Below are positions 1-17,322 of a stretch of 47,233 bases of DNA, one piece after another (within the stretch, counting starts at the first letter, position 1; every line of letters begins with the position of its first letter). The translations under genes were made by a program, and so were the position numbers. The DNA lies in the IMG/VR virus record IMGVR_UViG_3300030688_000047, positions 1 through 47,233 of that record. The stretch is one strand, 5' to 3'. Source of the stretch: a virus. Below the pieces are notes generated by a model. The model searched no databases. It was not told where the DNA came from and saw only the letters and a program-made list of their open reading frames with translations.

Positions 1-1037
1 GTATTTATAGTTTTCACCATATCTTCATAAGCAGCAGTATGTCGTTCACCATCACCAGTTCCATTATCTGGAGAGTTACCATTCGCAGTCCCACTCCAAC
101 TACCATCTAACCCAGATGAGATGGATGAAGCTTTATATTGAGATCCTGGATCTCCAGAATTATAACTTGCAGCTCTAATAGCAGAAGCAACCATCTGTCC
201 GATGAATTTAGATGAACCAGTTACGCCAAAACAAGGACTATTAAAAACAGTTGAATTTGTAACAGTAAAGTTAACAAAATTAGAGGCGATTTCAAATATA
301 CCATCTCCAGAAGTATTTGCAATACTTAGTAGTGGGGAATTTAAAATCATATTTTTACCAGCTGAAATGAGCAATGTTTCTGGTATAATGATTTGCCCAT
401 TTTTTCCTTGTAAGTTTATCATACAGTCATCGGAGTTTGTTAAAACAACTTGTGGTTTATTACTATCAATACACACTGTATTTCCCAATATATCTCCAAA
501 ATAAGCAGTAGCATTATCCATATCTACTTCTAATTTATAAGATGTAAATTCACCATCACTATTAGCCAATGATATTCTAAAATGTTTTCCTCTTTTTGTA
601 TCTAATTCAATCAAATAAGTATTTGTATCATCGAGATCATCTTCGCCCTGCCTATTTGCTATTTCTATTCTTAGTGTTTCATTTTTCCGTAGGTATTTAT
701 CTCGACCATCACAAGACCAAGTAAATTTATCAGAACTTACTCTTCTAACAGTAACCTGTTCGCCTTTCATAACATCAGGAGGATATTTATGATTACCATC
801 ACCTTCATACGTAGCAGAAATATTATTTGATGTTGTTGTATTAAAAGTTATAGATTTACCAGAAGCATCCATAACCGCAATATTTGCGCTAGAATTCTTA
901 GCATCGATAGCACCAGTTTGCATTGGTTGTAATTCTGGAATATATACTTTTATAATTACACTATCTTTATCTTTATCTTCTGCAACATAACCATGAAATG
1001 TTTCTACAGAACTAACTCTATCTTTTGGTTCTGTCAT
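1..1037 (-). CDS. Probable baseplate/tail spike protein (3' end outside window)
   Basis: Open on the minus strand from an ATG at 1037 (ribosome site AAAGGA just upstream) to the left edge, at least 345 residues; the C-terminus is missing. The N-terminal ~60 residues (HGYVAEDKDKDSVIIKVYIP) look like an OB-fold as found in central spike proteins such as T4 gp5. The rest is rich in short beta-strand-like Asn/Ser/Thr/Gly stretches, compatible with a beta-helical spike. It is the last gene of the minus-strand run and is preceded by a strong terminator at 1060-1084, so it probably has its own promoter or relies on readthrough. A virion role is inference from composition and the OB-like start; no catalytic motif is visible. 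Confidence 0.55.
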   Translation of the reverse strand, partial: MTEPKDRVSSVETFHGYVAEDKDKDSVIIKVYIPELQPMQTGAIDAKNSSANIAVMDASGKSITFNTTTSNNISATYEGDGNHKYPPDVMKGEQVTVRRVSSDKFTWSCDGRDKYLRKNETLRIEIANRQGEDDLDDTNTYLIELDTKRGKHFRISLANSDGEFTSYKLEVDMDNATAYFGDILGNTVCIDSNKPQVVLTNSDDCMINLQGKNGQIIIPETLLISAGKNMILNSPLLSIANTSGDGIFEIASNFVNFTVTNSTVFNSPCFGVTGSSKFIGQMVASAIRAASYNSGDPGSQYKASSISSGLDGSWSGTANGNSPDNGTGDGERHTAAYEDMVKTIN

Positions 1038-1096: not shown

Positions 1097-2389
1097 TTAT
1101 AGGATATTTGGCATTCCGGGAGTTCCGCCAAACGAATTACTCCCAAAATTCGATCCTTCTCCAGCCATAGGGGCGCGATTTAATGGCATCGGTTTTTCGA
1201 TATTGAAACTACCAAAATTACTACTCTGATTAGAACCAAAGTTATTATTATTATTATTATTATTCCCAAATGAACTACCACCACCAAACATGGCTCCAAA
1301 CATACCACCACCATTCTGATTAGATTGATTATTCAAATTAGCAAATGAACCAGTGCTACCAAATCCAGAACCAAACAGATGTTCAGTATATGCATTCTTA
1401 GGTGTACTTAAATTATCACCAAAGAGACTATTTGATTTTGTTAAATTACCAAACATTGAATTTCCAGTACTCTGTTGCTGTTGAGCAGGCTTCTGGACAA
1501 TTCTAGCAACAGAAGAATTGATCTTATTTGCATCTTGTGCAACACTACTAGCAATTTTAATATACTTGGGAAGATTATTAACATGAATGGCAAACTGTGA
1601 CATATTCTTAGTATAAATACCATCAACCATATCAATAATAGGATTGATCTTATCATAGATTTTGTACAATAAATGAACAGTAGAAATCATTCGAGGACAC
1701 GGAGCAACTGGACCATCGAATTCAGGCTTTACATAATACTTTTCTTCAAGTTCATCAATAGTCTTAATATCAAAGATCTTTTCAGTAAGATACATAAGAA
1801 CTGCCCAAGTACCCTTACGGACATTGAACTTTTCTTTATAAGCATCAATGAGTTCTTGCTTACTATTTAAAAGACGAACATTCAAAGTACACATCATAGT
1901 TTTATCGCGATACATAACATCAACAAACATATCAGTTTCATTCTTAAGAATTTTATCAAATTCAACAAGAGTCTTTTCATCGACCTTGTCAACAATACCA
2001 CTAACAAGATTAATTAATTTTGTAGGAATAGTCTTTTCAGATTTATCTTTAGCTTTAACAGCTACTTTGATAAGCTCGCGATAAGCAAATTGAATCCAAC
2101 CAACAGCGCCGCCACGAACAGTTCTATAGAAGAAACGATTAGCAGGATGATCAGTGGTGAGCTCAGCAAACGGGTTAAGCATGAGTGCTTCTTGATCATT
2201 AAAGACTTCTTGGAATAATAATACATGGCGTTTCTCATCCTTACCAGAAGTAATCTTTATACGATTATCATTAGAATCGATAACATAACCATCATCATCA
2301 GTAGAATAAACAGGCGCAGATAAGTTAATTAAATATCTAAGACAATTCGTAACATCATGGGTTTTAACCATAACAATGTCAGCTGTCAT
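1097..2389 (-). CDS. Unrecognised protein with FG-repeat, Asn/Gly-rich disordered tail
   Basis: 430 residues, ATG with AAGGGGAC ribosome site. Residues 1-~295 look folded and helical (many charged residues, e.g. FAYRELIKVAVKAKDKSEK), with no family I recognise. Residues ~298-430 are low complexity: a QQQQ run, an eight-Asn run, and 11 Phe-Gly dipeptides (SMFG, SLFG, HLFG, GFG, MFG, SFG, NFG types) spaced by Ser/Asn/Gly linkers, resembling FG-nucleoporin repeats. The neighbouring upstream gene (2475-4115) also ends in an Asn-rich tail with two FG motifs. The role is unknown: it could be an inner-virion protein, or a protein that phase-separates or interacts with a phage compartment. The FG count is read directly; the functional analogy is speculation. 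Confidence 0.85.
   Translation of the reverse strand: MTADIVMVKTHDVTNCLRYLINLSAPVYSTDDDGYVIDSNDNRIKITSGKDEKRHVLLFQEVFNDQEALMLNPFAELTTDHPANRFFYRTVRGGAVGWIQFAYRELIKVAVKAKDKSEKTIPTKLINLVSGIVDKVDEKTLVEFDKILKNETDMFVDVMYRDKTMMCTLNVRLLNSKQELIDAYKEKFNVRKGTWAVLMYLTEKIFDIKTIDELEEKYYVKPEFDGPVAPCPRMISTVHLLYKIYDKINPIIDMVDGIYTKNMSQFAIHVNNLPKYIKIASSVAQDANKINSSVARIVQKPAQQQQSTGNSMFGNLTKSNSLFGDNLSTPKNAYTEHLFGSGFGSTGSFANLNNQSNQNGGGMFGAMFGGGSSFGNNNNNNNNFGSNQSSNFGSFNIEKPMPLNRAPMAGEGSNFGSNSFGGTPGMPNIL
1240..1263 (-). repeat. (AAT)n trinucleotide microsatellite
   Basis: An uninterrupted (TTA)n run on the plus strand encodes the poly-Asn stretch of the FG-tail protein. Such tracts change length by polymerase slippage, so the tail may vary between isolates without frame loss. 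Confidence 0.85.
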
Positions 2390-2474: not shown

Positions 2475-4115
2475 TTATAAAATAAGATCATCGTCGTTAT
2501 TGCTTTTAAAGATGTTGCTGTTATTATTTATAAAACTATTTCCGTTACCAATAGATCCAAAATTCTTATTCTTACGTCCTTCGTCGATAGCACCAAAAAG
2601 CTTCTGCATCTCAGAAGGACCATCATCCATACCAAGAAGAGGACGAGTATCATCACCAATACCAATACCTAATAAGGTACTCAAATTTCTACTGTTATAT
2701 CCAATCGCATCACCAGATCCAATAAGCGGAGAAATCATACCACCAAGAATAGTTGGAACTTCATAGTTTTCACGATATCGTTCATTGTCGCAAAGATAAT
2801 GAAAGTTAATATGCGTTAAACCAGCAAAACAGACACTTGCACTTAGTTCAAAATCACCACGTTGAAATTCAAGAACTTTAAAAATACCATTTGTAAGATC
2901 ACGAATAAAATATTGAAAATTACGAGCTTTAGTATCTTCATCAAGGTTGGGGACAAGATATCCAAGAGTACCCTGGGTAACTTCAAGGGCTCGTCCGCCA
3001 ACATTTAATTGTTGTTTATCATAAAAGCTATTGTAAACAAAACCAACATTTGCAATCATATACTGTGTCATAACAACAGGAATGACCTGTGCCAACATAG
3101 AGCTAGCTGCATTCGAAGCACATGCAACACTTTGATCTCTTTGGTTAAATCCATTACCAACATTGAAATCAATAATTTTAGGGTCAAATCGACTAACAAA
3201 ATCACCTAATGAAATACAACTATCGAGATCAAGAATGGAAGATCCAAAACTAACATCTCGTAAATTGTTTGTAAGACTATCAAAATAAGATTCTTGTAAC
3301 AAATCAGAATGCATCATCCCATTATTAGGACTACGAGCATCAATCTTAGTTTTAGCAATACCGCGAAGAATATGACCCATATTTTGAGATGGTGTTTTTA
3401 AACTAGTATTTGTAATAATAGCTTCACCTTGATTACCAAGCTTATTCATTTCAGTAATCATTGTAACAGAAGTATTATTCGTCAAATCGGTAACATTGCT
3501 TAATTCTTCAGGACGCATCAAATACGAATCGCGATCAGATAAGAACTGTAAAGTATTTCCGTGGATAATATCAGTATCATTTTGGAGACCAATAAGATCT
3601 TTATCACCATATCGTTGTGCAGTAACGCCAGTTTTATGAAGAATAATCATGACAGTATCGGGATTGATGGTACCATGCAGATTCATAGGTTCGTCACTAA
3701 ATCGTCCAAAATAGATAGTTCGACTATTTGCACATTGCATCTGAATACCACTGCTATTATAAATAGGAAGATTATCAATATACATAAGAAAAGTCCAGCC
3801 AGTTTCATGACTGAACTCACTGGCTTTAACAATACGATCAGGAGACCATTGTGATTTGATGGCTCCCTGAACATTAATATCATCAGCTAATTTCAAAACA
3901 AGATTTTCATTACATTGATGAACGGCATCGCTCATGCACTCTTGAACTTGTCCAAGAACACCACGATTAATTTCATATGTCATAGGACGTATACATTGAT
4001 CAGTAAAATTACGAGGGGAGAATATATAAATAACAACTTTCTTGTCATTATTAAATTTATTTTCAAACATGCCTTTATTATTCAATTCATAATCATTACC
4101 AATAAAGTTAGCCAT
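2475..4115 (-). CDS. Unrecognised, probably structural protein
   Basis: 546 residues with ATG and a GGAGGG ribosome site. The N-terminal two-thirds looks like a beta-rich folded protein (e.g. KKVVIYIFSPRNFTDQCIRP, TGWTFLMYIDNLPIYNSS), with no catalytic motif I recognise. The last ~60 residues are Asn/Gly/Ser-rich and contain LFG and NFG motifs plus an acidic DDDLIL end, echoing the tail of the next gene (1097-2389). Adjacent position and similar tails suggest the two act together. A virion structural role is the simplest guess, but a non-virion assembly role cannot be excluded. Confidence 0.8.
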   Translation of the reverse strand: MANFIGNDYELNNKGMFENKFNNDKKVVIYIFSPRNFTDQCIRPMTYEINRGVLGQVQECMSDAVHQCNENLVLKLADDINVQGAIKSQWSPDRIVKASEFSHETGWTFLMYIDNLPIYNSSGIQMQCANSRTIYFGRFSDEPMNLHGTINPDTVMIILHKTGVTAQRYGDKDLIGLQNDTDIIHGNTLQFLSDRDSYLMRPEELSNVTDLTNNTSVTMITEMNKLGNQGEAIITNTSLKTPSQNMGHILRGIAKTKIDARSPNNGMMHSDLLQESYFDSLTNNLRDVSFGSSILDLDSCISLGDFVSRFDPKIIDFNVGNGFNQRDQSVACASNAASSMLAQVIPVVMTQYMIANVGFVYNSFYDKQQLNVGGRALEVTQGTLGYLVPNLDEDTKARNFQYFIRDLTNGIFKVLEFQRGDFELSASVCFAGLTHINFHYLCDNERYRENYEVPTILGGMISPLIGSGDAIGYNSRNLSTLLGIGIGDDTRPLLGMDDGPSEMQKLFGAIDEGRKNKNFGSIGNGNSFINNNSNIFKSNNDDDLIL

Positions 4116-4134: not shown

Positions 4135-5274
4135 TTAGACGGTTCGAATGAAATTAGAGCTTGTCAATAACAATAAAGCTAAATCAAAATAAATACAAAA
4201 CCAATCACGTACATTCTCTTCATTATAAACTATAATTACAGCTTCGTCGTTAAACGTCATATGAATACAAATTTTTATTTTACATAATGGATTATTCATA
4301 AAAGAACAACTAATGTTATTAGCGATATCGATATTGTGTTGTGCATACTTAAGTAATTTTTTTACAATTACTGAAAGTACATCTTTAGGACCATATGCAT
4401 TTCTAAAAGGATACTTTCTATTAAGTCTATCGATACAAATGCTATCGTGATTATCATCTACAAATACGTTACCATTAAGTAATATATAGTTATAATGCAA
4501 ATCAGTATATGCCCTTTTCAAAGATATAAACATCATAAAGATATCGTCAAATTGTTTATCATTAACAATAATATTCATTTTGTTACTGATGTCGTATAAA
4601 TCAAATTTATGAAGCTCTGACATATCCAATCCATAATTAGCATTCTGTTTAAAATGATCTAATGTTAAAGGTTCTGTTAATGCAATATTACTTAATGTAT
4701 CACTTATAGGAACTTTAGGAAATATATACCAATTATAATCATCCATAATAGGTCTCTTATTACGTTTTTCTGTATATAAAAAGTTCGTTAATGCAGTCGT
4801 ATCATAAAACGTCTGGCTTACAGTATTATAAAAATCTGAATATTTCATATATTGATTTTCTATCTGATATGAATTACTATCAAGTTTATTACAAAATGCT
4901 CTAAGTGGAGTATTATGTTTAAACTTTGTATTTGTTATTGATTTATGAATATTATTAATATGGTTAACAAAGATATAGTCATTTGAATGTGAACCTTCTT
5001 CAATATCATGAAAACTAACATGATACGGATAGTACATCTTATCATCTTTAAAACACAGTCTTTCAATGATAAAAGCTTTACCACATTGATATTCATACTC
5101 TATTAATTTTATAAAACTAGGATATGTTATATTTTGATCAGCTTCAATTTCTAATGGGTCTCCAACAATAGTAGGTTGATAAAATCCACTTATCATTCTC
5201 GTATAACCGAAAGAAGTGCCCGTGAGGACACTTCTATCTCGATCTAAAGAAATATAATTTATAATACTACTCAC
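4135..5274 (-). CDS. Unrecognised phage protein
   Basis: 379 residues. The start is GTG at 5274, overlapping the TGA of the upstream gene (GTGA overlap), so translation is probably coupled. The sequence is rich in Tyr, Asn, Asp and Ile with no signal peptide; the C-terminus is hydrophobic (YFDLALLLLTSSNF) but too short to call a clear membrane anchor. I recognise no motif. Its tight coupling to the 5271-6890 gene suggests a shared complex. Confidence 0.8.
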   Translation of the reverse strand: MSSIINYISLDRDRSVLTGTSFGYTRMISGFYQPTIVGDPLEIEADQNITYPSFIKLIEYEYQCGKAFIIERLCFKDDKMYYPYHVSFHDIEEGSHSNDYIFVNHINNIHKSITNTKFKHNTPLRAFCNKLDSNSYQIENQYMKYSDFYNTVSQTFYDTTALTNFLYTEKRNKRPIMDDYNWYIFPKVPISDTLSNIALTEPLTLDHFKQNANYGLDMSELHKFDLYDISNKMNIIVNDKQFDDIFMMFISLKRAYTDLHYNYILLNGNVFVDDNHDSICIDRLNRKYPFRNAYGPKDVLSVIVKKLLKYAQHNIDIANNISCSFMNNPLCKIKICIHMTFNDEAVIIVYNEENVRDWFCIYFDLALLLLTSSNFIRTV

Positions 5275-6890
5275 TCTTCGATCTTTTCTTCAGGCATTTG
5301 AGAGTTCCTGACCTGTAAAATTATTCTACAAATATCACGAACAACTTCATCGTCATAATAAACATCTTCTCCATTTTCAATATCCTGATTGATTAATTTG
5401 AATAACATAGGAGCAGTATTATATTTGTGATCATAGAGAATAATAAAATCTTTAAGACTATTAATAACATTGACAAAAGAATTATCACCAATAGAATTAG
5501 GAAACGATGCAATACAATTTCTATACTCAATTGTTTGATTATAACTCATATTAATACGATTGCCAACCGTTGATAATGCACTATCTTTCTTATCATTCGG
5601 TGTATTACATGTTAACAAATTAACAAGGGCAGATTTTCCACTCAATGCTAAATAAATTTGAGTTACAACAATGAGTTTACAGAACGTATCTGCATTAAGA
5701 TATTGTAACCCTTTTGCACCACCGATAATAGGACCGATGATCAAACCAGCAATAGTGGTATTAAAGCTATTAACTTGTACAATGTTATTCCGATAATAGT
5801 TAACAGCATCCCTAAACATATCAAAAGAAATATTGTAGTTCTTACAAACAGCTTCAATATGACAATTAACACCATACTCAATAATGATCGGAATATCAGC
5901 AGGTATTTGCGATACCTTCGAACTATGTTCGAGGTGTGTTGTATTAGACTCTTCATCACCACCACTAGATTCTGTAAGTTCTGTTCTACTCATGACATTG
6001 TTGCCACGATTAACTGTCATACTTAAAGCAGAGAAAGAACTCTTTGTACAAGTATCGATATATTTCATAACATCAGAATCATCTTTTAATAGATCAATAT
6101 TAATGAGTTTCTTAACAAGCATAGTAGCATAAATAAACTTACGAACACGAACAGGAGAATATCCGCTGATAGAAGCTGTAAACTTACTTCTATCATTGTT
6201 ATCTCGACGATTAATAATATTATCCAAATAGTTTGTAAACTTAGAATCAATAGTATCCAATTCACTAGTTCTTAATAACTTGTCTAAAATCTTAATACAA
6301 TAAATTTCTTTCATATCAGAAGAAATGAAAGATGTTGTCTTATGAATGATTTCTCCCCAAATAGGACAAATCATTTTACATAAAACAGAAATAGCAATAA
6401 CATTAACATAATCTACATATTTAAATGTTAATGAATTTGTATGGTGTGGCTCAGTCATAGCTTTATCGAGATTAGGAACAGGGATACCGGATTCTTTAAC
6501 AAATGTAATAAGCCTTGTAGGAAGACTCATATTCGAATTCTTAGAATTTGACAATTCTATTAATAGATCCCCAATAACCTCCAGGGAAACATTCATAGAT
6601 TTTTGATCATACATGTTTGTCGAAATAATCTGATTAGCTTTAATAAAGAACAATAATACTTCTCGTTGAAATTCTTCTGGTAAAGATTCGAGAAAAGCAT
6701 TCGCCGGAAGCATTAACTCATCCCAATGATTTTCTTTCTGCTTATCATAAGAGACTAATTTTTTATAAGAACCGCCTATATGAAACGTCACATCGTCGTC
6801 GGAATTATTGATATCAAAGTCATGAACAAGTTTAGCAATACCTGATTGAGGGCGGTCAGTTTCGGTAATAATCTTTATAATCTTTAACAT
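5271..6890 (-). CDS. Unrecognised phage protein
   Basis: 539 residues, ATG with an AAAGGGGA ribosome site. Mostly helical, with a Ser/Glu-rich low-complexity patch near residues 305-325 (ESSGGDEESNTTHLEHSS) that looks like a linker between two domains. The second half has a glycine-rich hydrophobic segment (IAGLIIGPIIGGAKG) and ALSGKSALVN, which resembles a P-loop fragment but lacks the full GxxxxGKS form. The acidic C-terminus overlaps the next gene by 4 nt. First gene after the terminator at 6954-6988, with an early-type promoter motif at 6921-6928. Confidence 0.82.
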   Translation of the reverse strand: MLKIIKIITETDRPQSGIAKLVHDFDINNSDDDVTFHIGGSYKKLVSYDKQKENHWDELMLPANAFLESLPEEFQREVLLFFIKANQIISTNMYDQKSMNVSLEVIGDLLIELSNSKNSNMSLPTRLITFVKESGIPVPNLDKAMTEPHHTNSLTFKYVDYVNVIAISVLCKMICPIWGEIIHKTTSFISSDMKEIYCIKILDKLLRTSELDTIDSKFTNYLDNIINRRDNNDRSKFTASISGYSPVRVRKFIYATMLVKKLINIDLLKDDSDVMKYIDTCTKSSFSALSMTVNRGNNVMSRTELTESSGGDEESNTTHLEHSSKVSQIPADIPIIIEYGVNCHIEAVCKNYNISFDMFRDAVNYYRNNIVQVNSFNTTIAGLIIGPIIGGAKGLQYLNADTFCKLIVVTQIYLALSGKSALVNLLTCNTPNDKKDSALSTVGNRINMSYNQTIEYRNCIASFPNSIGDNSFVNVINSLKDFIILYDHKYNTAPMLFKLINQDIENGEDVYYDDEVVRDICRIILQVRNSQMPEEKIEE

Positions 6891-7001: not shown

Positions 7002-7631
7002 TCAGCCGCCGAAGATATCTTCCTGAGGAACACTCTTCTGATAACCACCACTACCACCAGTATTATTATTGGGGCGACCGCCCTGGCCGGCGAATTCGCG
7101 CTTATAGCTGGTCAGAAGAACAGCATAAGGAATGTCGGCACCAAGCTGTTCGATGATGGTTTCGACACCGATGTTTGAACGGCCGACTTCATCCATAGGA
7201 GTTTGAAGTTCAAAGTTCAGACTGGCCCGAATGTTGAACCGCAACCGCTCAGCCTTCTGGCCATTAACAGCGATATAACAGACGTTCTTGTCATTCCGAC
7301 CGATGACAACACACCCGTTGGGCATGAATTTCTTTTCTTTGTCATCATAAATCGTGAGATTGATCGTCTCGTGGGTCTCGGGATGCTGCTCTACCAGCAG
7401 CTTACGAAACTTGCTGCGCAGAACCACCATGGCATTGCGGCTCAGATTCCACTTGAACACAGGACCGCCCTGAACATTCTTGACCATGACGGCCAAGGAT
7501 GCGTTGCCGTTATAGACGCCAATATTCAGAGAAGCATCCTTGTTATCCGATCCTCGCAGATTGACCAGGCGAGAAAAATCGTAAGGCTTCGGCTCGAAGG
7601 GCTTCTGCTCATAGCTTTTTTGGTCAGACAT
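7002..7631 (-). CDS. Putative single-stranded DNA-binding protein (G+C-rich gene)
   Basis: 209 residues. Residues ~20-175 form a beta-rich region with alternating basic and aromatic residues (FKWNLSRNAMVVLRSKFRKL, VCYIAVNGQKAERLRFN). This is followed by a Gly/Asn-rich linker and a short acidic tip ending EDIFGG. A compact beta domain plus flexible linker and acidic-aromatic tip is the usual layout of SSBs, whose tip binds partner proteins. The gene is G+C-rich with C/G-ending codons, unlike its neighbours, as expected for a very abundant product. The assignment rests on architecture, not on a recognised OB signature. Confidence 0.5.
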   Translation of the reverse strand: MSDQKSYEQKPFEPKPYDFSRLVNLRGSDNKDASLNIGVYNGNASLAVMVKNVQGGPVFKWNLSRNAMVVLRSKFRKLLVEQHPETHETINLTIYDDKEKKFMPNGCVVIGRNDKNVCYIAVNGQKAERLRFNIRASLNFELQTPMDEVGRSNIGVETIIEQLGADIPYAVLLTSYKREFAGQGGRPNNNTGGSGGYQKSVPQEDIFGG

Positions 7632-8588: not shown

Positions 8589-9770
8589 CTAAATTAATGG
8601 TTCGTCGAGACTATCAAGAATAGACTGTATCATTTCTTCGGATAATTCGATATTTGATTTTAGTTTTAATCTTTCGTGAATTAACTTTGGTAATGTATCT
8701 GGAGTTGGAATTGGTCTATCTTTATTAATCTCTTTCATTTGATGTAACTTAAATTGATTATCTTTTTCTGTTTTATCTTTTTTATAAGTAAAGATAATAT
8801 TTGTGTAGTTTTGTTTTACATATCTTGTTAATATAGTTTTTACTTCTTTTGAATTATGAATAACTCTAACAAAACCATATACAGACCTATCCTTATAAAA
8901 CTTATCCATTCTTTTATCAAAGTCAGAAATGATATCATCAAGATCAGTTATGTTCATCATATTAAATGTTATATAAGGCATAGCATTTTTATTTTCTATA
9001 AACTTTGGAGTAAATCCATTTTCCATATCTAATATATAAAAGAATCCTTTGCGTTCTTCTTCATTATGAGCAAGTCTATCAAAAGATCCACTAAAGTATA
9101 CATTTTCATAAACAGACACAAGATGGATGTGTCCACATAACACTGCTTTCTTAACAAAATCCTTAAACTGCTCAGCAGAAAAAGTACACTTTGGTAATGA
9201 TATATTTTCTGGAAGAGCATGTGCAAAGTTGCCATGAACTGTCACATAGTCAACATGAGATACGTTATTAATAGATAGCAAATTCTTTACTTCTTCTATA
9301 ATAGCATAACTATCCTCATATGGTAAATCGTCAGGTATATAGATAAAAGATCTATTTAAACTATTGATGTTTTCATATGTTAATTTATCTATGTATTTTA
9401 AATCGTTTGTAAACTTGTGTTTATCATACAGTAATTTAAATAATGACATTTGATTTCTATCGTGAGAATATGTACCCCTCACAACACGAACAACAATACT
9501 TTCTTTATTACACCGATAAAGAAGATCAACTATAAAACCAAGAATGATATTTACACTAGGATTTAAATACAAAAGTGTATCTAGAAAATCACCATTGATC
9601 AAAAGAAGTTTTGTAGTTTCTTGTTTTAATAATGGAAATAAATACATATAAAGATTATCAATGATATATTGACTCGGTGTTTTATAATGTCCTAAATGAA
9701 CATCAGTTAAATTAATAATACCAAAATCAGTTGTCGTCTGGGACTTCCCATTCTGTGCTATCTTGTTCAT
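8589..9770 (-). CDS. SbcD/Mre11-like metallophosphoesterase (putative nuclease)
   Basis: 393 residues. Calcineurin-type phosphoesterase motifs occur in order: DVHLGH near residue 25 (DxH), INGDFLD (GD), RGTYSHDR in place of the usual GNHD, VHGNFAH, and LCGHIHL (GHxH). These bind two metal ions and cut phosphodiesters; SbcD/gp47 proteins pair with an SbcC-type ATPase in end processing. No SbcC partner is visible in the window. Asn of GNHD is replaced, but the His-Asp pair is kept. The called ATG overlaps the upstream gene by 44 nt and has a weak ribosome site, so the true start may be a little downstream at a non-ATG codon. Confidence 0.85.
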   Translation of the reverse strand: MNKIAQNGKSQTTTDFGIINLTDVHLGHYKTPSQYIIDNLYMYLFPLLKQETTKLLLINGDFLDTLLYLNPSVNIILGFIVDLLYRCNKESIVVRVVRGTYSHDRNQMSLFKLLYDKHKFTNDLKYIDKLTYENINSLNRSFIYIPDDLPYEDSYAIIEEVKNLLSINNVSHVDYVTVHGNFAHALPENISLPKCTFSAEQFKDFVKKAVLCGHIHLVSVYENVYFSGSFDRLAHNEEERKGFFYILDMENGFTPKFIENKNAMPYITFNMMNITDLDDIISDFDKRMDKFYKDRSVYGFVRVIHNSKEVKTILTRYVKQNYTNIIFTYKKDKTEKDNQFKLHQMKEINKDRPIPTPDTLPKLIHERLKLKSNIELSEEMIQSILDSLDEPLI

Positions 9771-10803: not shown

Positions 10804-11415
10804 TTATCCTAAATCACAATCTGGATTTGTAGGATCTAACTTCATTACTCTAATAACAGTATCAACAAAATCACGAGTTCGTTCAATGGCATCTAATTCA
10901 CTTCTTGTTAATACAGGATCGTCACTATACCAAACATTTTTAAATGTAACAATTCCATTTTCATCCATGGCTTCCATAACATCATCAACTCTACCATTAT
11001 TAATTAATCTTCCATAAACATCTTCTTCATCAATATGTTCTGGATCAAATCCAAATCCACTAATTCTTCCTTGTTTTAATAGATTCAATACTGGCGCATA
11101 TGTAATAATAGGATGGAACATAATAGAAGGTGTATCTCTAAGATCATCTAATGTTTCTAACGGTTTGATATTATTTTCTTGTACATCGATAGTAGTCATG
11201 GCCTCATTGAACTTAACTTCAGACATACGAATATCACGAATGACTGTATCAACAAAGGATTTACGAATACTTGTAAAATCGTCTTGAATATTTCCAAAGA
11301 AGTTATTACTTTGAAATGAGTTATTGATCTTGTTAACAATGGCATCGTTTCCGCCACCACCTAAAAGATTACCAGCAAGAGGAAATGCACCTAACTGTGT
11401 CATAGTAAATGACAT
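10804..11415 (-). CDS. Unrecognised, probably structural protein
   Basis: 203 residues, ATG with an AGGAG ribosome site, 12 nt after the RNAP beta-prime exon 2. Gly-rich N-terminus (AGNLLGGGGNDAIVNK) with one FFG motif, then helical, with two segments sharing the phrase FVDTVIR (residues ~54 and ~185), perhaps a short internal repeat. No catalytic motif. Confidence 0.78.
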   Translation of the reverse strand: MSFTMTQLGAFPLAGNLLGGGGNDAIVNKINNSFQSNNFFGNIQDDFTSIRKSFVDTVIRDIRMSEVKFNEAMTTIDVQENNIKPLETLDDLRDTPSIMFHPIITYAPVLNLLKQGRISGFGFDPEHIDEEDVYGRLINNGRVDDVMEAMDENGIVTFKNVWYSDDPVLTRSELDAIERTRDFVDTVIRVMKLDPTNPDCDLG

Positions 11416-11427
11416 ATGGTTATACTC

Positions 11428-13271
11428 CTAATCAGAAGACAAGAATGCACTTAATGTAGACAGAACAGGATATGTCAAAGATACGCCAGATGCAATACCA
11501 AATGATTTTGTATTATGAATACGATTTGCTGGATGCAGAACACTGAACTTACGAGCAGCTTCATTTTCAAAGATAGGATTACCAGTCATCTCATCTCCGT
11601 CAAAGTCCGTTGTGTCCAGATATGTCGTTGAAGTTATCTCTCTCATATCCCGGTATGTTCTACCCGCCACATATCTTTATGTGGACCAGATCATATCTTT
11701 ACCCTGTCCAATTGGAGTAGGGTATCTCCTATTTCTTTCCCACTTGGGAGTCTACTGGGTGATAAACCCATGATCGTTGAACGTTCTTCATAGCACATCA
11801 TCCGATGTTCCGTAGAAGCTTCGCTGCGGACTTTCTCTATCATCATAGTTTTTACCATACCCAATTGATTAGATTGGCCACATCCTGTATATCTCATTTC
11901 TGAGGGATGTTTGGTATATGATGCTTAACGAGGTTTTCCCGCAATTAAGGAGAATTCTATCTTGAAATTACTTTCAAGTAGGCCAATTAACTTTGCATTC
12001 GGGTCCTTCGTAACATGACTAACAGGAACACCAATATTAATAGTATTATCATGTATGTTTGTTTTAAATTTAGTAATATACAAGAATTGAACACCGCCAC
12101 GTTTTAAACAAGGGTGTCTACAAAATGTCGTTGGTAATCCTTCAAATGGACTATCGTTAATAAGTTTAATAAATATATCATTGATATCTTTATCAAATTC
12201 AACCAAGGCGATACGTTGTCTAAGAACAGCATCTCCAGGAGCCATTTTGTAATCATCAATTAATCTACCAATAATGTGATCTTTATAAGTATTAACACCC
12301 ATAGACCATGGCAAGTACAAATGATCATATTTATCTTCATGTGGACAAATAACACCTCTAAAAGAAAAGTGTGTTCTAGTCCCTAAAATCTGACCTCTGA
12401 AAATAGATCTTTTTGCACCAATACGATCACTAATGATTTCATCGATATAACTGATATAAGATGAATAAACATCATAAATAGTTTTCAATAATGTTTTTAC
12501 TCGAACTGTTTCTCTATCTGAAATACATTGTAAATCAGTAGCAGCATTAAGGATAAGTTTAGATCCAGAATCAACAAATTGACGACCACCATGTGTTCCA
12601 TCGTTTGTAACAGAATGAACAACACTAGACAAAATAGGAAGCTTATTTGTAAAGACCAAATCTCTATTCTTTGCAATAACTTCTAAAATATCTTTCGTAA
12701 TTGGTTTCTTACTTGTAACACTATTGATACGTGCAAAGTAATCTATGATCTTATCAAAATTTTCATAGAAATAAACATAACCTTGTCCATCAATATGCAT
12801 TTCTAATTCAGGAGGTAATTGTGCATTAGGGTTTAAAATTGCTTCTAGGTACCCACTCTTTAACCAAGAATTTGTAAGAAGCTTATAAAACATAGGATGA
12901 AGTACTTTGATACCATGTGGAATAGATAACCAAGTTTTATGTTGAATTTTGTTATAAGCAGCGAAATCGTCAATAACTTCACTGTGACAAATATTACAAA
13001 TTTGTCCTTTATAATAATTACCAAAATAATGCCCACATTCACAAGATGCAATAAAACTCAAATCACCACTTCTTGAGAATAACATACGATTACGCTGTTG
13101 TGCATAATCTTTATTTCCTAAAGGAATTTCATTTAAACAAATAGCTTCTTTTGATCCAGCATATAATTCTTCTAAGTTACAAAAACCAACATGTCTAACG
13201 ATCTCTTTAGTAGACGTAGATGTAGATTCTAAATTTAAAATAGCATCAGGATTGAGTTTGTTAATATGCAT
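11428..13271 (-). CDS. RNA polymerase beta-prime subunit, N-terminal part, split by a group I intron
   Basis: Exon 1 runs from ATG 13271 (GAGGGG ribosome site 5 nt upstream; the more upstream TTG is not needed) to about 11990. It carries the zinc ribbon (CECGHYFG..CNICHSEV, ~residue 80), a counterpart of the R-rich RVDYSGRS region (GQILGTRTHFSFRGVI) and the approach to the active site (NIGVPVSHVTKDPNA). Exon 2 (from about 11610-11660 to 11428) carries TDFDGDEM, the catalytic Mg-binding loop of all multisubunit RNAPs, then ends at a normal stop. Like phiKZ-type polymerases, the subunit is split, and the C-terminal beta-prime part is not in this window. Without splicing the reading frame stops at 11925, so splicing is required. 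It is not clear whether this belongs to the virion or the non-virion polymerase. Confidence 0.9.
11610..11990 (-). ncRNA. Group I intron (no homing endonuclease) in the RNAP beta-prime gene
   Basis: Conserved core elements occur in order on the minus strand: AATTGCGGGAAAACC (P element, 11946-11932), GTCCGCAGCGA (Q; CCGC 11829-11826 pairs with GCGG 11942-11939 as P4), GTTCAACGATCAT (R, 11782-11770) and AAGATATGATCTGG (S, 11699-11686). GATCAT 11775-11770 pairs exactly with ATGATC 11694-11689 as P7. TGGGT/ACCCA at 11770-11756 is P8, and 11684-11667 is a perfect 7-bp P9 hairpin. CTTGAAA/TTTCAAG near 11980-11963 fits P2. Exact splice sites are uncertain; the 5' site lies between about 11993 and 11950 and the 3' site between about 11666 and 11608. 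Too small to encode a homing enzyme. Confidence 0.9.
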
Positions 13272-13299
13272 TTGATCCCCTCTGTATGTATGCAAAAAT

Positions 13300-13420: not shown

Positions 13421-15007
13421 TTACAGGTACATGCCGCCGAGACCACCTTCGACAGTATTGGCACCCATGCTCAGACGAGCCTCGCTATAGCCCTTGGCCA
13501 TATCGATCAGCCAGTTGGTGTTACTGCTGCTGGTATTGCTGTTGGACTGCTTGATGGTCACGCCGTTGTTGATAGCATTGACCAGGGCCTGCACAAAAGA
13601 CGGCTTCAGGATGCTGACAATGTTGTACGACAGCGGAATGAACTTCGAATGCTTGGCGACAATCGAAGCCTGGTAATGCTGGTTCTCATAGACGTCCAGC
13701 AGGTTCGAGATTTCCTCAGCAGGATATCCCTTACCGCTGACCAGTGACATATAGTCGACGACGCGACTATCGGTCGGGCTGTCAGGGTAGTTGACGATGC
13801 CGGTGATGACCGTCGAAGCGACCGAAAAGATGTCGCTATTGCCATCATACGGCTTGCCCATAAAGTCACTGAAGGCATCGATGACCCGCTTGTTGTTGCC
13901 ATCGTCCATGAACAGCTTGAGCATGGACAGCGTCGGAACGCCAGGGATGTTATCGATAGCCAGAACAGGAGTCAAGCAGGCGATCTGGACGAACTGCTTA
14001 ACGTCGTCCATGTTGTCGCACGACATCAGTTCATTGCGGCTGTTGTCCAGAACATCCGGCATCAGGCGGCCGAGGTTCGGCTTTCCGCTTTCGAATGAAG
14101 TATAAGGCGACAGCCACAGACCATCATAGAGGAACTTCGACCCACCCAGGCCGATGGCGAGAGGAGCGAAGGCATTGATCGGCATGATCGAGAACACAGA
14201 AGAAATGTGCACGATCGGAGCCAGAACATGCGGAAGCTTTTCGCGAGCCAATGAGTTGTTCGGAGGATTGGTCCGAACGAAGCTGGTGTAGCCGCCGACG
14301 ACGAACAGCTGTTTCGGTTCCGTCGGTTCGTTGTTGGAGACCGACAGTTCGTCACGAACAGGAGAGCTGACAACGATGCCGTAGTCGAAACGCGGCTTGG
14401 TCACGAACGGCCAATGGCGATCGTAGTAGTTGTGGACTTCAGCCAACGACGTCGAGATCGTCAAGGTCGAACCCTTGAAGAAGCTGATCGACCCGTAGAC
14501 ATCCAGATTGCCAGGCTTGTTCGCCGAGAACGTAGACCGCAGATGGGCGATGATGGCGCCGACGCGAGTTTCGTTCTGGTAGTCTTCGGGAATGACGATG
14601 GCATTCTGAATGATGGTGCAATTCGCGAAATCAGCTTCGAGGCGCTTGCGAACGCTCGGGAAATAAGCGATGAACGCCTTGCGCTTGAATTCAAGAGTTC
14701 CGAACTGAACGCCCATGTCGGGGAACAGCAGAACATAGAACATGTTGTCGACCATCACCGCCAGAGTGTTGGACGGCTCAGGGATGCGAACGACCTTGGC
14801 GCCGGGGATTTCCTTTTCCATACGCTCGACGAACTTCGATAGCTGCGGGGACTGCGTCGAGAAGCTGTCAAATTCGGACAATGAACTGTGCAGGAGAGAA
14901 CGCTTCTTTTCCTGCTGAGAATTGCTGAAACCAGGAGCCTGCTTTTCGCCCTGCGGAGCCTTGGGAGAATCGCTTTCCTGAGTACCAAAACCGGAAACAC
15001 TAGACAT
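13421..15007 (-). CDS. Abundant G+C-rich phage protein, unrecognised (virion or compartment protein)
   Basis: 528 residues, ATG with an AAAGGGAC ribosome site. The first ~45 residues are Ser/Gln/Pro-rich and disordered; the rest is a mixed alpha/beta fold with segments such as VVGGYTSFVRTNPPNN. The C-terminus is Gly-rich (VEGGLGGMYL). The gene is G+C-rich with C/G-ending codons, one of four such islands in an A+T-rich genome, implying heavy translation. It has its own upstream region with a 5'-UTR hairpin and its own terminator. A weak resemblance (VGGY-x2-F followed by a VTH/VHI stretch) to the other G+C-rich minus-strand gene at 33734-35029 hints at distant paralogy. It could be a virion protein or another mass-produced protein such as a nuclear-shell type; sequence alone does not decide. 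Confidence 0.85.
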   Translation of the reverse strand: MSSVSGFGTQESDSPKAPQGEKQAPGFSNSQQEKKRSLLHSSLSEFDSFSTQSPQLSKFVERMEKEIPGAKVVRIPEPSNTLAVMVDNMFYVLLFPDMGVQFGTLEFKRKAFIAYFPSVRKRLEADFANCTIIQNAIVIPEDYQNETRVGAIIAHLRSTFSANKPGNLDVYGSISFFKGSTLTISTSLAEVHNYYDRHWPFVTKPRFDYGIVVSSPVRDELSVSNNEPTEPKQLFVVGGYTSFVRTNPPNNSLAREKLPHVLAPIVHISSVFSIMPINAFAPLAIGLGGSKFLYDGLWLSPYTSFESGKPNLGRLMPDVLDNSRNELMSCDNMDDVKQFVQIACLTPVLAIDNIPGVPTLSMLKLFMDDGNNKRVIDAFSDFMGKPYDGNSDIFSVASTVITGIVNYPDSPTDSRVVDYMSLVSGKGYPAEEISNLLDVYENQHYQASIVAKHSKFIPLSYNIVSILKPSFVQALVNAINNGVTIKQSNSNTSSSNTNWLIDMAKGYSEARLSMGANTVEGGLGGMYL

Positions 15008-15027
15008 TTTTTAGTCCCTTTTACTTG

Positions 15028-15049
15028 TGTTCCTCGTCGACAAGGAACA
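15028..15049 (-). promoter_or_regulatory. 5'-UTR hairpin upstream of the G+C-rich gene
   Basis: TGTTCCT and AGGAACA form a 7-bp stem about 20 nt before the start codon at 15007. The upstream gene is divergent, so this is not a terminator for it and most likely lies in the leader. A TATATTAT box (15067-15074) lies further upstream. Confidence 0.5.
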
Positions 15050-15203
15050 TGGTTATAACCAAATAAATAATATATGTTCACATTTCGTTTGAAAAATGCG
15101 ACATATATATCCCTCTAAGAAATCACCGATTTCTCGGCGAAGTCTCTACACAATATTATATTCACATTTATTTTTTTACAATAAAAGTATCATTTAAAAA
15201 TCT

Positions 15204-15213
15204 ATTATATGAT
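15204..15213 (+). promoter_or_regulatory. Late-type promoter motif ATTATATGAT
   Basis: Exactly 27 nt before ATG 15240. The identical 10-mer occurs exactly 27 nt before the ATG at 25735. It contains TATG, the short motif I recall for phiKZ late promoters. Confidence 0.5.
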
Positions 15214-15239
15214 TAACTCTTTTAGAGAGGAAATGGTTT

Positions 15240-16409
15240 ATGTTATTTCGATCTATGCAAACATATTTACCACATTTAAATGGAAAAGTATTTCCAAAAA
15301 CAAATATGTATATAAATAGTTTAAATGTAAGAAAGAATCTTATTTATAAAAGGTTTTTATATTCTAATAGTTTTGAAAGTGGTGCTATTAAACTTATAAA
15401 GAAAATCTTGTTAGATATGGATGTAGAGAATATGGTACTTAAAAGAAAAACTGATGTTTCTAGATACTTTGATGTTATGTTAAATGACAAAGATCAATTA
15501 GAAAGTATATTTGATATGAATGAAACAAATACTATTAGAATAAATAGTTTTGTGAGTTCTGACAAAGGTAGATGTAATGAATACATTATTCCAATCGAAA
15601 GTACAGATCCTTTACAAACATTACCATTTGAACAAGGATGGGATATGTGGAAACATATTCGTCCCGTTCGTATAATGGATATAAAGAGTAATGAGTTAAC
15701 TTTTAATACTTATCTAGATAAGATAATATTCAAAGAACAATGTCCTTCTCATATTGTTATTGGTATTGATGTTGTTGCTTTAGGTCTACAGTTTGTTAAT
15801 TATTTAAAGACCTTTAATCTACAGAAAACAGATGACAATGTTTCTAATTATATTCACAGATATGTATTATGTTTTATGTTAGATGATCTCATGAATAACT
15901 GGTTGATAAATCAGTACCAGTCATTACTAAGAGATGCTTATTTCAATGATAATTATGATTATACAAAAGAAGTTGCAAAAGATCAATTCTTTGGATTTAG
16001 AGGAAGTGAATATAATTTATTTATAGAAGAAATGGTTACAAATATAAAATTAGTAAAAGAGAAATCATTAAGAAGCGATATGTTTCTTAATAGTTTAAGA
16101 CTAGGAGATAGAGATTTTGTATCTTATATAAAACATATTTTAAAATATTGTTATATTAAAAACTTAAGACAATATAATTGGATGGAATTCTTAAGAGACT
16201 ATAGATACTTAGAGATCATTATGTATACATATTTTCTACAACGGGATACTGTACATAGCCAGAATTTAATGAAGGCTATGAATAGAGATATCCCTATTCT
16301 CATAGGTAATAAGTTCTGGTCAAATTGTAAAATAGAGAATACACGAAAATTGATAGAACATGAATTAACATTCAATATATTTACATTGATGAAAGATCAA
16401 GATGTATGA
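15240..16409 (+). CDS. Unrecognised phage protein
   Basis: 389 residues, ATG with a GAGAGG ribosome site. Largely helical, with many aromatic and basic residues (LKYCYIKNLRQYNWMEFLRD); no motif recognised. It is the only plus-strand gene between two long minus-strand blocks. Its coding end lies inside the perfect palindrome 16404-16437. Likely late-expressed given the TATG-type upstream motif; structural or assembly role is a guess. Confidence 0.82.
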   Translation: MLFRSMQTYLPHLNGKVFPKTNMYINSLNVRKNLIYKRFLYSNSFESGAIKLIKKILLDMDVENMVLKRKTDVSRYFDVMLNDKDQLESIFDMNETNTIRINSFVSSDKGRCNEYIIPIESTDPLQTLPFEQGWDMWKHIRPVRIMDIKSNELTFNTYLDKIIFKEQCPSHIVIGIDVVALGLQFVNYLKTFNLQKTDDNVSNYIHRYVLCFMLDDLMNNWLINQYQSLLRDAYFNDNYDYTKEVAKDQFFGFRGSEYNLFIEEMVTNIKLVKEKSLRSDMFLNSLRLGDRDFVSYIKHILKYCYIKNLRQYNWMEFLRDYRYLEIIMYTYFLQRDTVHSQNLMKAMNRDIPILIGNKFWSNCKIENTRKLIEHELTFNIFTLMKDQDV

Positions 16410-16437
16410 AGGGATGGCCTAGGCCATCCCTTCATAC
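16404..16437. terminator. Bidirectional palindromic terminator
   Basis: A 34-nt perfect palindrome (centre GGCCTAGGCC) lies between convergent genes, overlapping the stop region of the plus-strand gene and 2 nt from the minus-strand stop. Confidence 0.85.
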
Positions 16438-16438
16438 G

Positions 16439-16870
16439 CTAAATAGAGATAGTAAATCTCTTCACAGTATCTATCATTTGTTTTAACCAATTGTCATATT
16501 GTTCTAATGAAAAATAAAGGTCGCCTATTGATTTATTAAAGTTATTTGTTTCAGCATTATAAACAAATACGTAATCATTATCAGTGTTGTAATCATTAAC
16601 AAAACTATAAATAGATTTCGTTACTTCTGATACATCATATTTAAAATCACTAATAGATCTATTTACTGTTACGACTAATATAAATTTTTCTACAGTTTCT
16701 AATGTTAAAACTATGATATCATATTTGTCCGATGCTATAGGTCTGATAACTTTTAAGTTTTCAATACTATATTTTTTATCAATAATTCTACCAAAATTAA
16801 ATGTATAATAATTAAATTTATCTTTAGAAAGAACATCACCAAGAATATCAAATGTATCAAAGATAGCCAT
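16439..16870 (-). CDS. Small unrecognised protein, possible paralogue of its neighbour
   Basis: 143 residues; its ATG shares a base with the TAA of the upstream gene (TAATG), so translation is coupled. Alternating strand and helix, with a central KFILVVTVNRSISDFKYD segment that resembles the centre of the upstream protein. No motif. Being in the tail block suggests a small baseplate or chaperone role. Confidence 0.75.
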   Translation of the reverse strand: MAIFDTFDILGDVLSKDKFNYYTFNFGRIIDKKYSIENLKVIRPIASDKYDIIVLTLETVEKFILVVTVNRSISDFKYDVSEVTKSIYSFVNDYNTDNDYVFVYNAETNNFNKSIGDLYFSLEQYDNWLKQMIDTVKRFTISI

Positions 16871-17322
16871 TAATGTACCATAAAGTGTTTTCTGTGATAT
16901 AATGCATTATGTACTAAGAGATTATTCATATTTTGAATATGAATAGTATCGACAAATTCTTCAATATTCTTAAACTTATCAACAACAACAAAATAATGTA
17001 TACTTGTATCTATATTAGCATTCTTATAATCATTGATATTATTAAGAACTGTTGTGTACAACTCTGCATAATTATAACTGTTAGAGTTATTATTCATAAT
17101 GTAAACAGATGCTATATTTGGATCTATGCAATAATTTATAACAAGGATATACATTGAAATGTTCTTACCTTTATCTTTCTTAGACAATAAACAAGTTTGA
17201 TAGATCGGTGATTTTTTATTAATAGTTGTAAGTATCTCATTAATATCATCAATATAACCAGCTTTGTCTACTGTATTTAGTCGCATACAATTAATTAAAT
17301 ATTCTATAAAATCGTCCATCAT
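16870..17322 (-). CDS. Small unrecognised protein, possible paralogue of its neighbour
   Basis: 150 residues, ATG with a strong AGGGGGG ribosome site. Very Asn/Tyr/Ile-rich. The core (MYILVINYCIDPNIASVYIM ... DYKNANIDTSIHYFVVVD) parallels the next protein in length and order of strands. No motif recognised. Confidence 0.75.
   Translation of the reverse strand: MMDDFIEYLINCMRLNTVDKAGYIDDINEILTTINKKSPIYQTCLLSKKDKGKNISMYILVINYCIDPNIASVYIMNNNSNSYNYAELYTTVLNNINDYKNANIDTSIHYFVVVDKFKNIEEFVDTIHIQNMNNLLVHNALYHRKHFMVH

Follow-up and report, generated by a model that had tools for sequence, protein, structure and literature searches.

A probable gp70-family protein with an FG-rich tail, encoded beside the import factor PicA in a phage of the nucleus-forming kind

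How do proteins pass across the shell of the phage nucleus, in which no protein-sized pore has been seen, and which partners make the import factor PicA gather at its single focus (passages in PMC11087766 and PMC12908238)? A stretch of viral DNA of 47,233 nucleotides (IMG/VR record IMGVR_UViG_3300030688_000047; hereafter, the window) brings these questions to a single gene, whose product ends in a series of Phe-Gly (FG) dipeptides. The initial annotation had proposed that such a tail could form a selective gate if the phage builds a nucleus-like shell. Here we ask what this protein is, which kind of phage encodes it, and whether FG itself or a more general property of the tail is kept in its family. 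Coordinates of the features discussed are collected in Table 1.

Table 1. Features of the window discussed in the text
Feature	Coordinates	Strand	Basis
Baseplate assembly protein, next gene downstream of the FG gene	3-1037		phrog_3216 E 3e-40
gp70-family protein (phiKZ gp70 / PhiPA3 gp64 counterpart), probable	1097-2389	-	430 aa, ATG start; profiles and gene order
Predicted disordered FG tail, residues 299-430, 11 FG, C-terminal tip PNIL	1100-1495	-	sequence, AlphaFold2
Predicted folded N-terminal domain of the FG protein, residues 1-298	1496-2389	-	AlphaFold2
PicA (Imp1; phiKZ gp69 family), C-terminal tip DLIL	2475-4115	-	phrog_3141 E 3e-5 (phiKZ gp69 family)
Extra gene between gp68 and PicA	4135-5274	-	no PHROG or Pfam match
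phiKZ gp68 family, non-virion RNA polymerase component	5271-6890	-	phrog_3209 E 2e-25
ChmC/Imp6 family (phiKZ gp67)	7002-7631	-	phrog_3284 E 2.7e-5
SbcD-like nuclease (phiKZ gp65)	8589-9770	-	phrog_100; 36% identity to phiKZ gp65, E 1e-47
phiKZ gp59 family	10804-11415	-	BLASTP E 1e-4 to phiKZ gp59; phrog_3254 E 8e-7
Non-virion RNA polymerase subunit (phiKZ gp55)	11925-13295	-	phrog_2987 E 1.4e-60; BLASTP E 3.8e-33 to gp55
Divergent ChmA (chimallin), very probable	13421-15007	-	hhalign; same slot before gp55

All 11 FG pairs of the protein (starting at residues 313, 323, 339, 343, 364, 368, 374, 384, 392, 415 and 420) lie within its last 132 residues, about one per 11 residues, and Gly follows 11 of the 13 Phe of this tail. 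Asn (25), Gly (23), Ser (18), Phe (13) and Gln (8) are its commonest residues, and nine residues are charged (four Lys, three Glu, one Asp, one Arg). In 100,000 shuffles of the 132 residues FG occurred 2.28 times on average and never more than 9 times, short of the observed count; this bears out the FG-rich, charge-poor tail described in the initial annotation. The related tail claimed there for the neighbouring PicA stands in part: two FG are indeed found near the end of that protein (residues 507 and 519), but its last 42 residues include 10 charged ones and are not charge-poor. The DNA encoding the FG tail is nearly free of tandem repeats, with only a (TTA)7.7 run, corresponding to a run of Asn, and a 24-base unit in 1.9 copies, so most of the FGs are not recent slippage copies. 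In an AlphaFold2 model (52 aligned rows) block means are 72-97 for residues 1-290, indicating a folded N-terminal domain, and 61 for residues 291-300, while pLDDT falls below 50 at residues 305-334 and 340-428. The same phage is present on three other IMG/VR contigs; the loci compared are identical to the window across 16,890 shared bases, so natural variation is not visible in them.

Direct searches found no match for the FG protein (P0001) among phages and viral contigs, and none for the product of its neighbour (P0002) among phages; the assignment therefore had to come from synteny and profiles. The FG protein also matched no Pfam family at E 0.01 and none of the PHROG models at E 1e-3. With a gp70 profile built from 26 named phages it was the best of the 38 window ORFs (chosen from 57 listed; all profile-search E-values refer to these 38), at E 2.1e-4. 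A grown profile of 98 members, which included the related locus L055 and excluded the window, again ranked it best of the 38, at E 7.2e-9 over profile positions 17-265 of 282. When five gp70 members of the window's clade were compared by hhalign with 25 others from outside that clade, the result was 98.2% (E 3.6e-14), against 0.16% for the control. Since this profile-profile comparison succeeds, we read the PHROG miss as a limit of sensitivity. The comparison of the N-terminal domain with nucleus-forming phages, suggested in the initial annotation, thus places it in the gp70 family. By fold, the best PDB match of this domain has only E 1.1; two phage proteins in BFVD match the model, which was built with gp70 relatives, at E ~1e-6 (prob 1.00).

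Gene order points the same way: the FG gene lies directly downstream of PicA, as does gp70 in phiKZ, PhiPA3, RAY, pVa-21 and Moabite, and in the clade loci L055, L077, L134 and L131/L132. PhiPA3 gp61 (ChmC), gp63 (PicA) and gp64, the last as a GFP fusion, localise to the nuclear shell; all three are expressed early and were not found in virions, and gp63 and gp64 were pulled down with gp2 (ChmB), according to passages in PMC10643120. In all likelihood, judging from profiles and gene order, the FG protein is a shell-associated gp70, the counterpart of PhiPA3 gp64; its own localisation to the shell would follow by analogy with the published one of gp64. An equation of gp70 with Imp3 was considered and dropped. 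Imp3 is listed among the proteins identified in the PhiPA3 study in a review (passage in PMC12908238), and the texts examined give no gene number for it; Imp3 is probably gp59, in the window 10804-11415. The word gp70 is absent from two reviews of phage import factors.

The surroundings of the gene match the core block of nucleus-forming phages, with a divergent chimallin, polymerase subunits, SbcD, a ChmC-family gene, PicA and gp70. In phiKZ the order is gp54 (chimallin), gp55, gp59, gp62-67, gp68, gp69 (PicA), gp70, and a phiKZ-like order from SbcD through gp70, with small extra genes in some, is found in PhiPA3, RAY, pVa-21 and Moabite. The PicA gene of the window was matched by a profile of 26 named phages at E 4.8e-8 and by a grown profile of 99 members, including L077 of the window's clade and leaving out the window, at E 8.1e-11. 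Between gp68 and PicA the window's clade has one or two additional genes, and phiKZ none: L055 has an ORF (14367-15473) similar in size to the window's, L077 has two genes (14504-15733 and 15743-16990) and L131 has one (14691-15947). The ChmC-family protein of the window terminates in QEDIFGG; in loci L049-L125, acidic tips resembling that of SSB (DDDIPF or DDDIF) are frequent among proteins in the ChmC slot (the gene before gp68).

The chimallin was detected with more effort. No match to the chimallin PHROG model was found in the window or its 208-kb twin record, and chimallin alignment A4 matched neither this twin nor the record of L055. A chimallin HMM of 14 members ranked the product of 13421-15007 first of the 38 window ORFs at a marginal E of 0.003, one of 71 members gave E 0.052, and as a single sequence the protein reached 1.6% against chimallins. 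Profiles built from its own clade, which comprises L055 and L077, then L134 and L130-L133, changed this: three clade members against 28 chimallins gave 98.3% (E 1.4e-14), and five against 28 ChmA gave 99.0% (E 3.7e-18, 445 columns). Cross-controls stayed low, at 0.25% for the ChmA clade against gp70s, 0.16% for the gp70 clade against chimallins and 0.10% for the PicA clade against chimallins. Chimallin profiles match 16 of the 17 named gp70-bearing records searched, SEGD1 being the exception. A divergent chimallin is thus very probably present in the window phage, although only profile-profile comparison that included members of its clade brought it out. A structure model of the protein from three sequences was poor (pLDDT 36), too poor for a fold test; the Foldseek list obtained with it contains many acetyltransferase folds, every match at E 0.06 or worse. 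The C-domain of chimallin is reported to be GNAT-like (passage in PMC9365700), and we set this likeness aside as support because of these E-values.

Among further features, a tubulin-family (PhuZ-like) match was found in the twin record (place 106925-107179, in a 361-aa frame, E 1.1e-5). Such matches are present in four of six records (the twin, phiKZ, PhiPA3 and that of L134), all under the Pfam cut-off, and absent from the L055 and L077 records. Of the features of Chimalliviridae, PicA and the conserved gene block are present in the window. Together with the divergent ChmA and the ChmC-family gene they firmly support, by gene content, a phage of the nucleus-forming kind, as the initial annotation had supposed. 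Further sources are PMC13282480, PMC12571901 and PMC10299810 (each cited for passages).

We then compared the tails of 102 gp70 proteins: those of 26 named phages, 71 complete ones from loci L049-L125, four clade members and the window. Near-copies were kept, the fragmentary tail of L098 was left out, and tail boundaries were set by the end of the profile, or by eye for the four clade members. Tails are 88-352 residues long (median 170). In every one of them the four commonest residues make up a larger share than in the N-terminal domain (median 54% versus 35%), and 101 contain an 80-residue stretch with an entropy below that of any stretch in their own N-terminal domain, 93 of them by more than 0.2 bit. 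Charged residues account for less than 25% in 90 tails; at least 33% are charged in the remaining, mixed-charge 12. Sorted by which of Phe, Tyr, Trp and Met is most frequent, the 90 charge-poor tails divide into 34 led by Met, 25 by Tyr, 18 by Phe and 13 by Trp. FG, by contrast with this general bias, is sparse: 66 tails have none, 24 have one and eight have two, followed by L055 and L096 with four each, L082 with seven and the window with 11. Shuffling reached the observed FG count in 0 of 20,000 cases for the window, 43 for L082, 254 for L055 and 1087 for L096; pairing of Phe with Gly is above composition clearly in the window and L082, weakly in L055 and doubtfully in L096.

When the tails with at least four FG (four rows) are mapped onto a PicA tree of 83 phages, this FG class needs four changes, and the charge class needs five; this is a quick tree with near-copies thinned by hand and long branches, including the window's, so that single placements are unsure. 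The group table of the tree, from which 68 rows are left out, gives three changes for FG, two of them forced by starred branches. FG tails seem to have arisen more than once. Even within the window's clade the tails differ, with FGGQ repeats in L055, SRFS, TRFS and SKFS in L077, and a single FG in the whole protein of L134. FG is not a trait of the gp70 family; what is kept is a biased, mostly sticky tail, as a property and not as letters. The reading of the protein by its FG, as proposed in the initial annotation, is accordingly divided: the counterpart in PhiPA3 does localise to the shell, but FG is not kept. The tail of PhiPA3 gp64 lacks FG altogether, so localisation to the shell does not need FG; a relative without the motif that shares the function, which the initial annotation had counted against its proposal, is found here for localisation and for this one relative.

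Some tails and neighbours deserve mention in their own right. The mixed-charge tails, mostly of Arg/Asp type, are those of Moabite, DT01, EaH1, FBKp24, SPLA10, pVa-21, FLC8, PCH45, L088, L105, L109 and L111; sequences of this type resemble eukaryotic speckle-type sequences. The gp70 of Pseudomonas phage Churi (OM718002.1) is annotated as 'Med15 subunit of mediator complex protein', perhaps owing to a Gln-rich tail. An FG-rich ORF of a related phage, L097 (4381-5106, nine FG), has CxFG pentapeptide-like repeats, perhaps forming a beta-helix, and does not belong to the gp70 family.

A second property links gp70 to PicA. In the window, PicA ends in DLIL (2478-2492) and gp70 in PNIL (1100-1114), and the endings of the two proteins are GFGNI and GFGNI in L085, DLGLL and GLGLL in PhiPA3, DDII and GDII in L123, and DLSF and SLSF in L077. 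For 46 phages with PicA identities below 40%, the window included, the mean BLOSUM62 score over the last five residues is 0.04 within a phage versus -4.39 for shuffled partners and was reached in 0 of 5000 shuffles, as were the scores for the last three and last eight residues. In a stricter set of 29 phages (PicA identity below 30%), shuffles equalled the score in 176 of 5000 cases over three terminal residues, in 7 over five and in 12 over eight. The same score applied to control pairs, from those of the 46 phages that had the genes, gave 1707 of 5000 for gp68-gp70 and 766 for gp68-PicA (30 phages each), and 2634 for chimallin-gp70 and 1714 for chimallin-PicA (19 phages each); when just the final residue is scored, a weak excess is seen in these gp68 and ChmA controls too (33 to 216 of 5000). 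Terminal Leu is found in the gp70 of 15 of 83 phages, and PicA ends in Leu in all 15 (4.2 expected). An ending of the form [LFMI]G[LI][LI] occurs in two of 397 PhiPA3 ORFs, PicA and gp64 only; this pattern was picked after both tips had been seen, and the count is a measure of rarity rather than a blind test.

The resemblance has limits. A tree-paired test of Leu endings gave 3.5 same and 0 opposite cases (p 0.125), the same direction without significance, and aromatic endings showed no trend (2.4 same, 3.2 opposite). We gave up the claim of statistical independence after this test, which had too few independent cases. Within its clade, the window shows a clear match, as does L077; L055 shows a loose one, and L134 (DFSF/PLAV) and L131/L132 (ANRD/RRYF) show none.

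From the homology, gene order, predicted disorder and tip resemblance computed here we infer a role in docking and gathering. gp70, whose gene follows directly on that of PicA, is probably part of the phage nuclear shell, and its folded N-terminal domain would dock onto the shell or onto PicA. Its tail, predicted to be disordered, would bear many weakly sticky groups, which are Phe-Gly in the window and Met, Tyr, Trp or Arg/Asp in other phages. Such a tail could serve as a flexible multivalent scaffold that gathers PicA and its partners, or keeps them, at a single patch of the shell. The PicA-like last residues may dock both proteins on a common partner. FG would then be one lineage's spelling of a sticky tail rather than a conserved code. 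PicA forms one focus per nucleus, at which stalled cargo gathers, and AlphaFold2 gave no confident PicA oligomer, further partners being expected (passages in PMC11087766); the single focus seen by microscopy in other phages may be such a scaffolded patch. A scaffold of this kind fits because gp70 is a PicA-adjacent protein of a shell family with a sticky disordered tail and a PicA-like tip. Against it stand the uneven tip match in the window's own clade, the non-significant tree-paired test and the fact that disordered tails may be plain linkers. We favour this proposal tentatively, rating it a little short of an even chance.

The main rival is precisely such a linker: a plain flexible tether, whose chemistry hardly matters and which merely spaces the folded domain from a C-terminal docking tip. 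It would explain why the residues of the tail change so freely although all 102 proteins keep a biased one, why the tips of gp70 resemble those of PicA, and why ChmC-slot proteins in several loci carry SSB-like tips. It accounts less well for FG pairing far above composition in the window, and also in L082, and for the charge-poor state of 90 of the 102 tails, which goes beyond what a linker requires. We regard a mere tether as unlikely, albeit a serious contender.

A role on the RNA side, in which gp70 would join ChmC and the polymerase in releasing transcripts or exporting mRNA and its tail would aid an RNA-rich zone at the shell, is improbable. It draws on the gene order of PhiPA3, RAY, pVa-21 and Moabite, where gp70 immediately precedes a polymerase beta gene, on the 12 Arg/Asp tails, which could bind RNA, and on the ChmC-family gene upstream of PicA. 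Yet the next gene is baseplate-like rather than a polymerase gene in the window, L055, L077 and L134, an ORF intervenes in L131/L132, and it is PicA that the gp70 tip resembles.

Marginally less probable still is a nuclear-pore-like FG gate, the kind of role proposed in the initial annotation. In the version considered here, PicA with its cargo would pass through a selective phase made by the FG tails where import takes place, and other proteins would be kept out. The FG density and scarcity of charge in the window's tail, the encoding of a shell protein family beside PicA, the FG-rich tails of L082, L055 and L096, and the four changes needed for four FG rows on the PicA tree would all suit a gate. 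But 98 of the 102 tails have fewer than four FG, those of the clade members L077, L131, L132 and L134 among them, and pairing exceeds composition weakly in L055 and not clearly in L096; moreover, no protein-sized pore has been seen in the phage nuclear shell, according to passages in PMC11087766 and PMC12908238. Its broader form is equally doubtful: that nucleus-forming phages independently built a pore-like selective phase, with gp70 tails as a cohesive shell patch around PicA, PicA, which shares the tip of gp70, held in that phase as its transport receptor, and FG convergent on nuclear pores here, apparently separately in L082 and perhaps in L096. That gp70 is a virion tail or baseplate protein, an outcome the initial annotation had set against its own proposal, is very improbable: the downstream gene does encode a baseplate assembly protein, but PhiPA3 gp64 shows the opposite behaviour, being at the shell and absent from virion mass spectra (passages in PMC10643120), and gp70 adjoins polymerase genes in other phages.

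As a shell protein encoded beside PicA, with a PicA-like tip and, in some lineages, FG repeats, gp70 is a concrete candidate for a part in protein import; all relatives examined carry a biased tail that is presumably disordered. In the open-licence literature searched we found no description of a nucleoporin-like gp70 tail or of a tip shared with PicA.

Compared with known systems, the closest relatives are PhiPA3 gp64 and phiKZ gp70 (phrog_3520), which share with the window protein the homologous N-terminal domain (20% and 16% identity, respectively), the place after PicA and a biased C-terminal tail; their tails are rich in Met, Gln and Pro, whereas the window's is rich in FG, and the window protein has no direct PHROG match. 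PicA (Imp1, phiKZ gp69) and gp70 are encoded by adjoining genes, have similar tips within phages and are both published at the shell, but no sequence relation between them is seen and the tail of PicA is short or absent in many phages. Bacterial SSB has a disordered linker and a short acidic tip at its free C-terminus; gp70 resembles it in the linker and the short tip, the latter being mostly hydrophobic and PicA-like instead of acidic. FG nucleoporins of the yeast Nup100/Nup116 type have FG repeats in Asn/Ser/Gly/Gln linkers with few charges. The window protein differs in having one short FG block; no nucleoporin homology was found in it by Pfam (E 0.01) or in the PDB (none below E 1.1 by fold and E 0.22 by profile), and no pore scaffold is known for it. 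What the two share is repeated FG in few-charge Asn/Ser/Gly/Gln linkers, predicted to be disordered in the window's tail. Should that tail act as a phase, transport chemistry of the FG type would have two origins, one in eukaryotes and one among viruses that infect bacteria.
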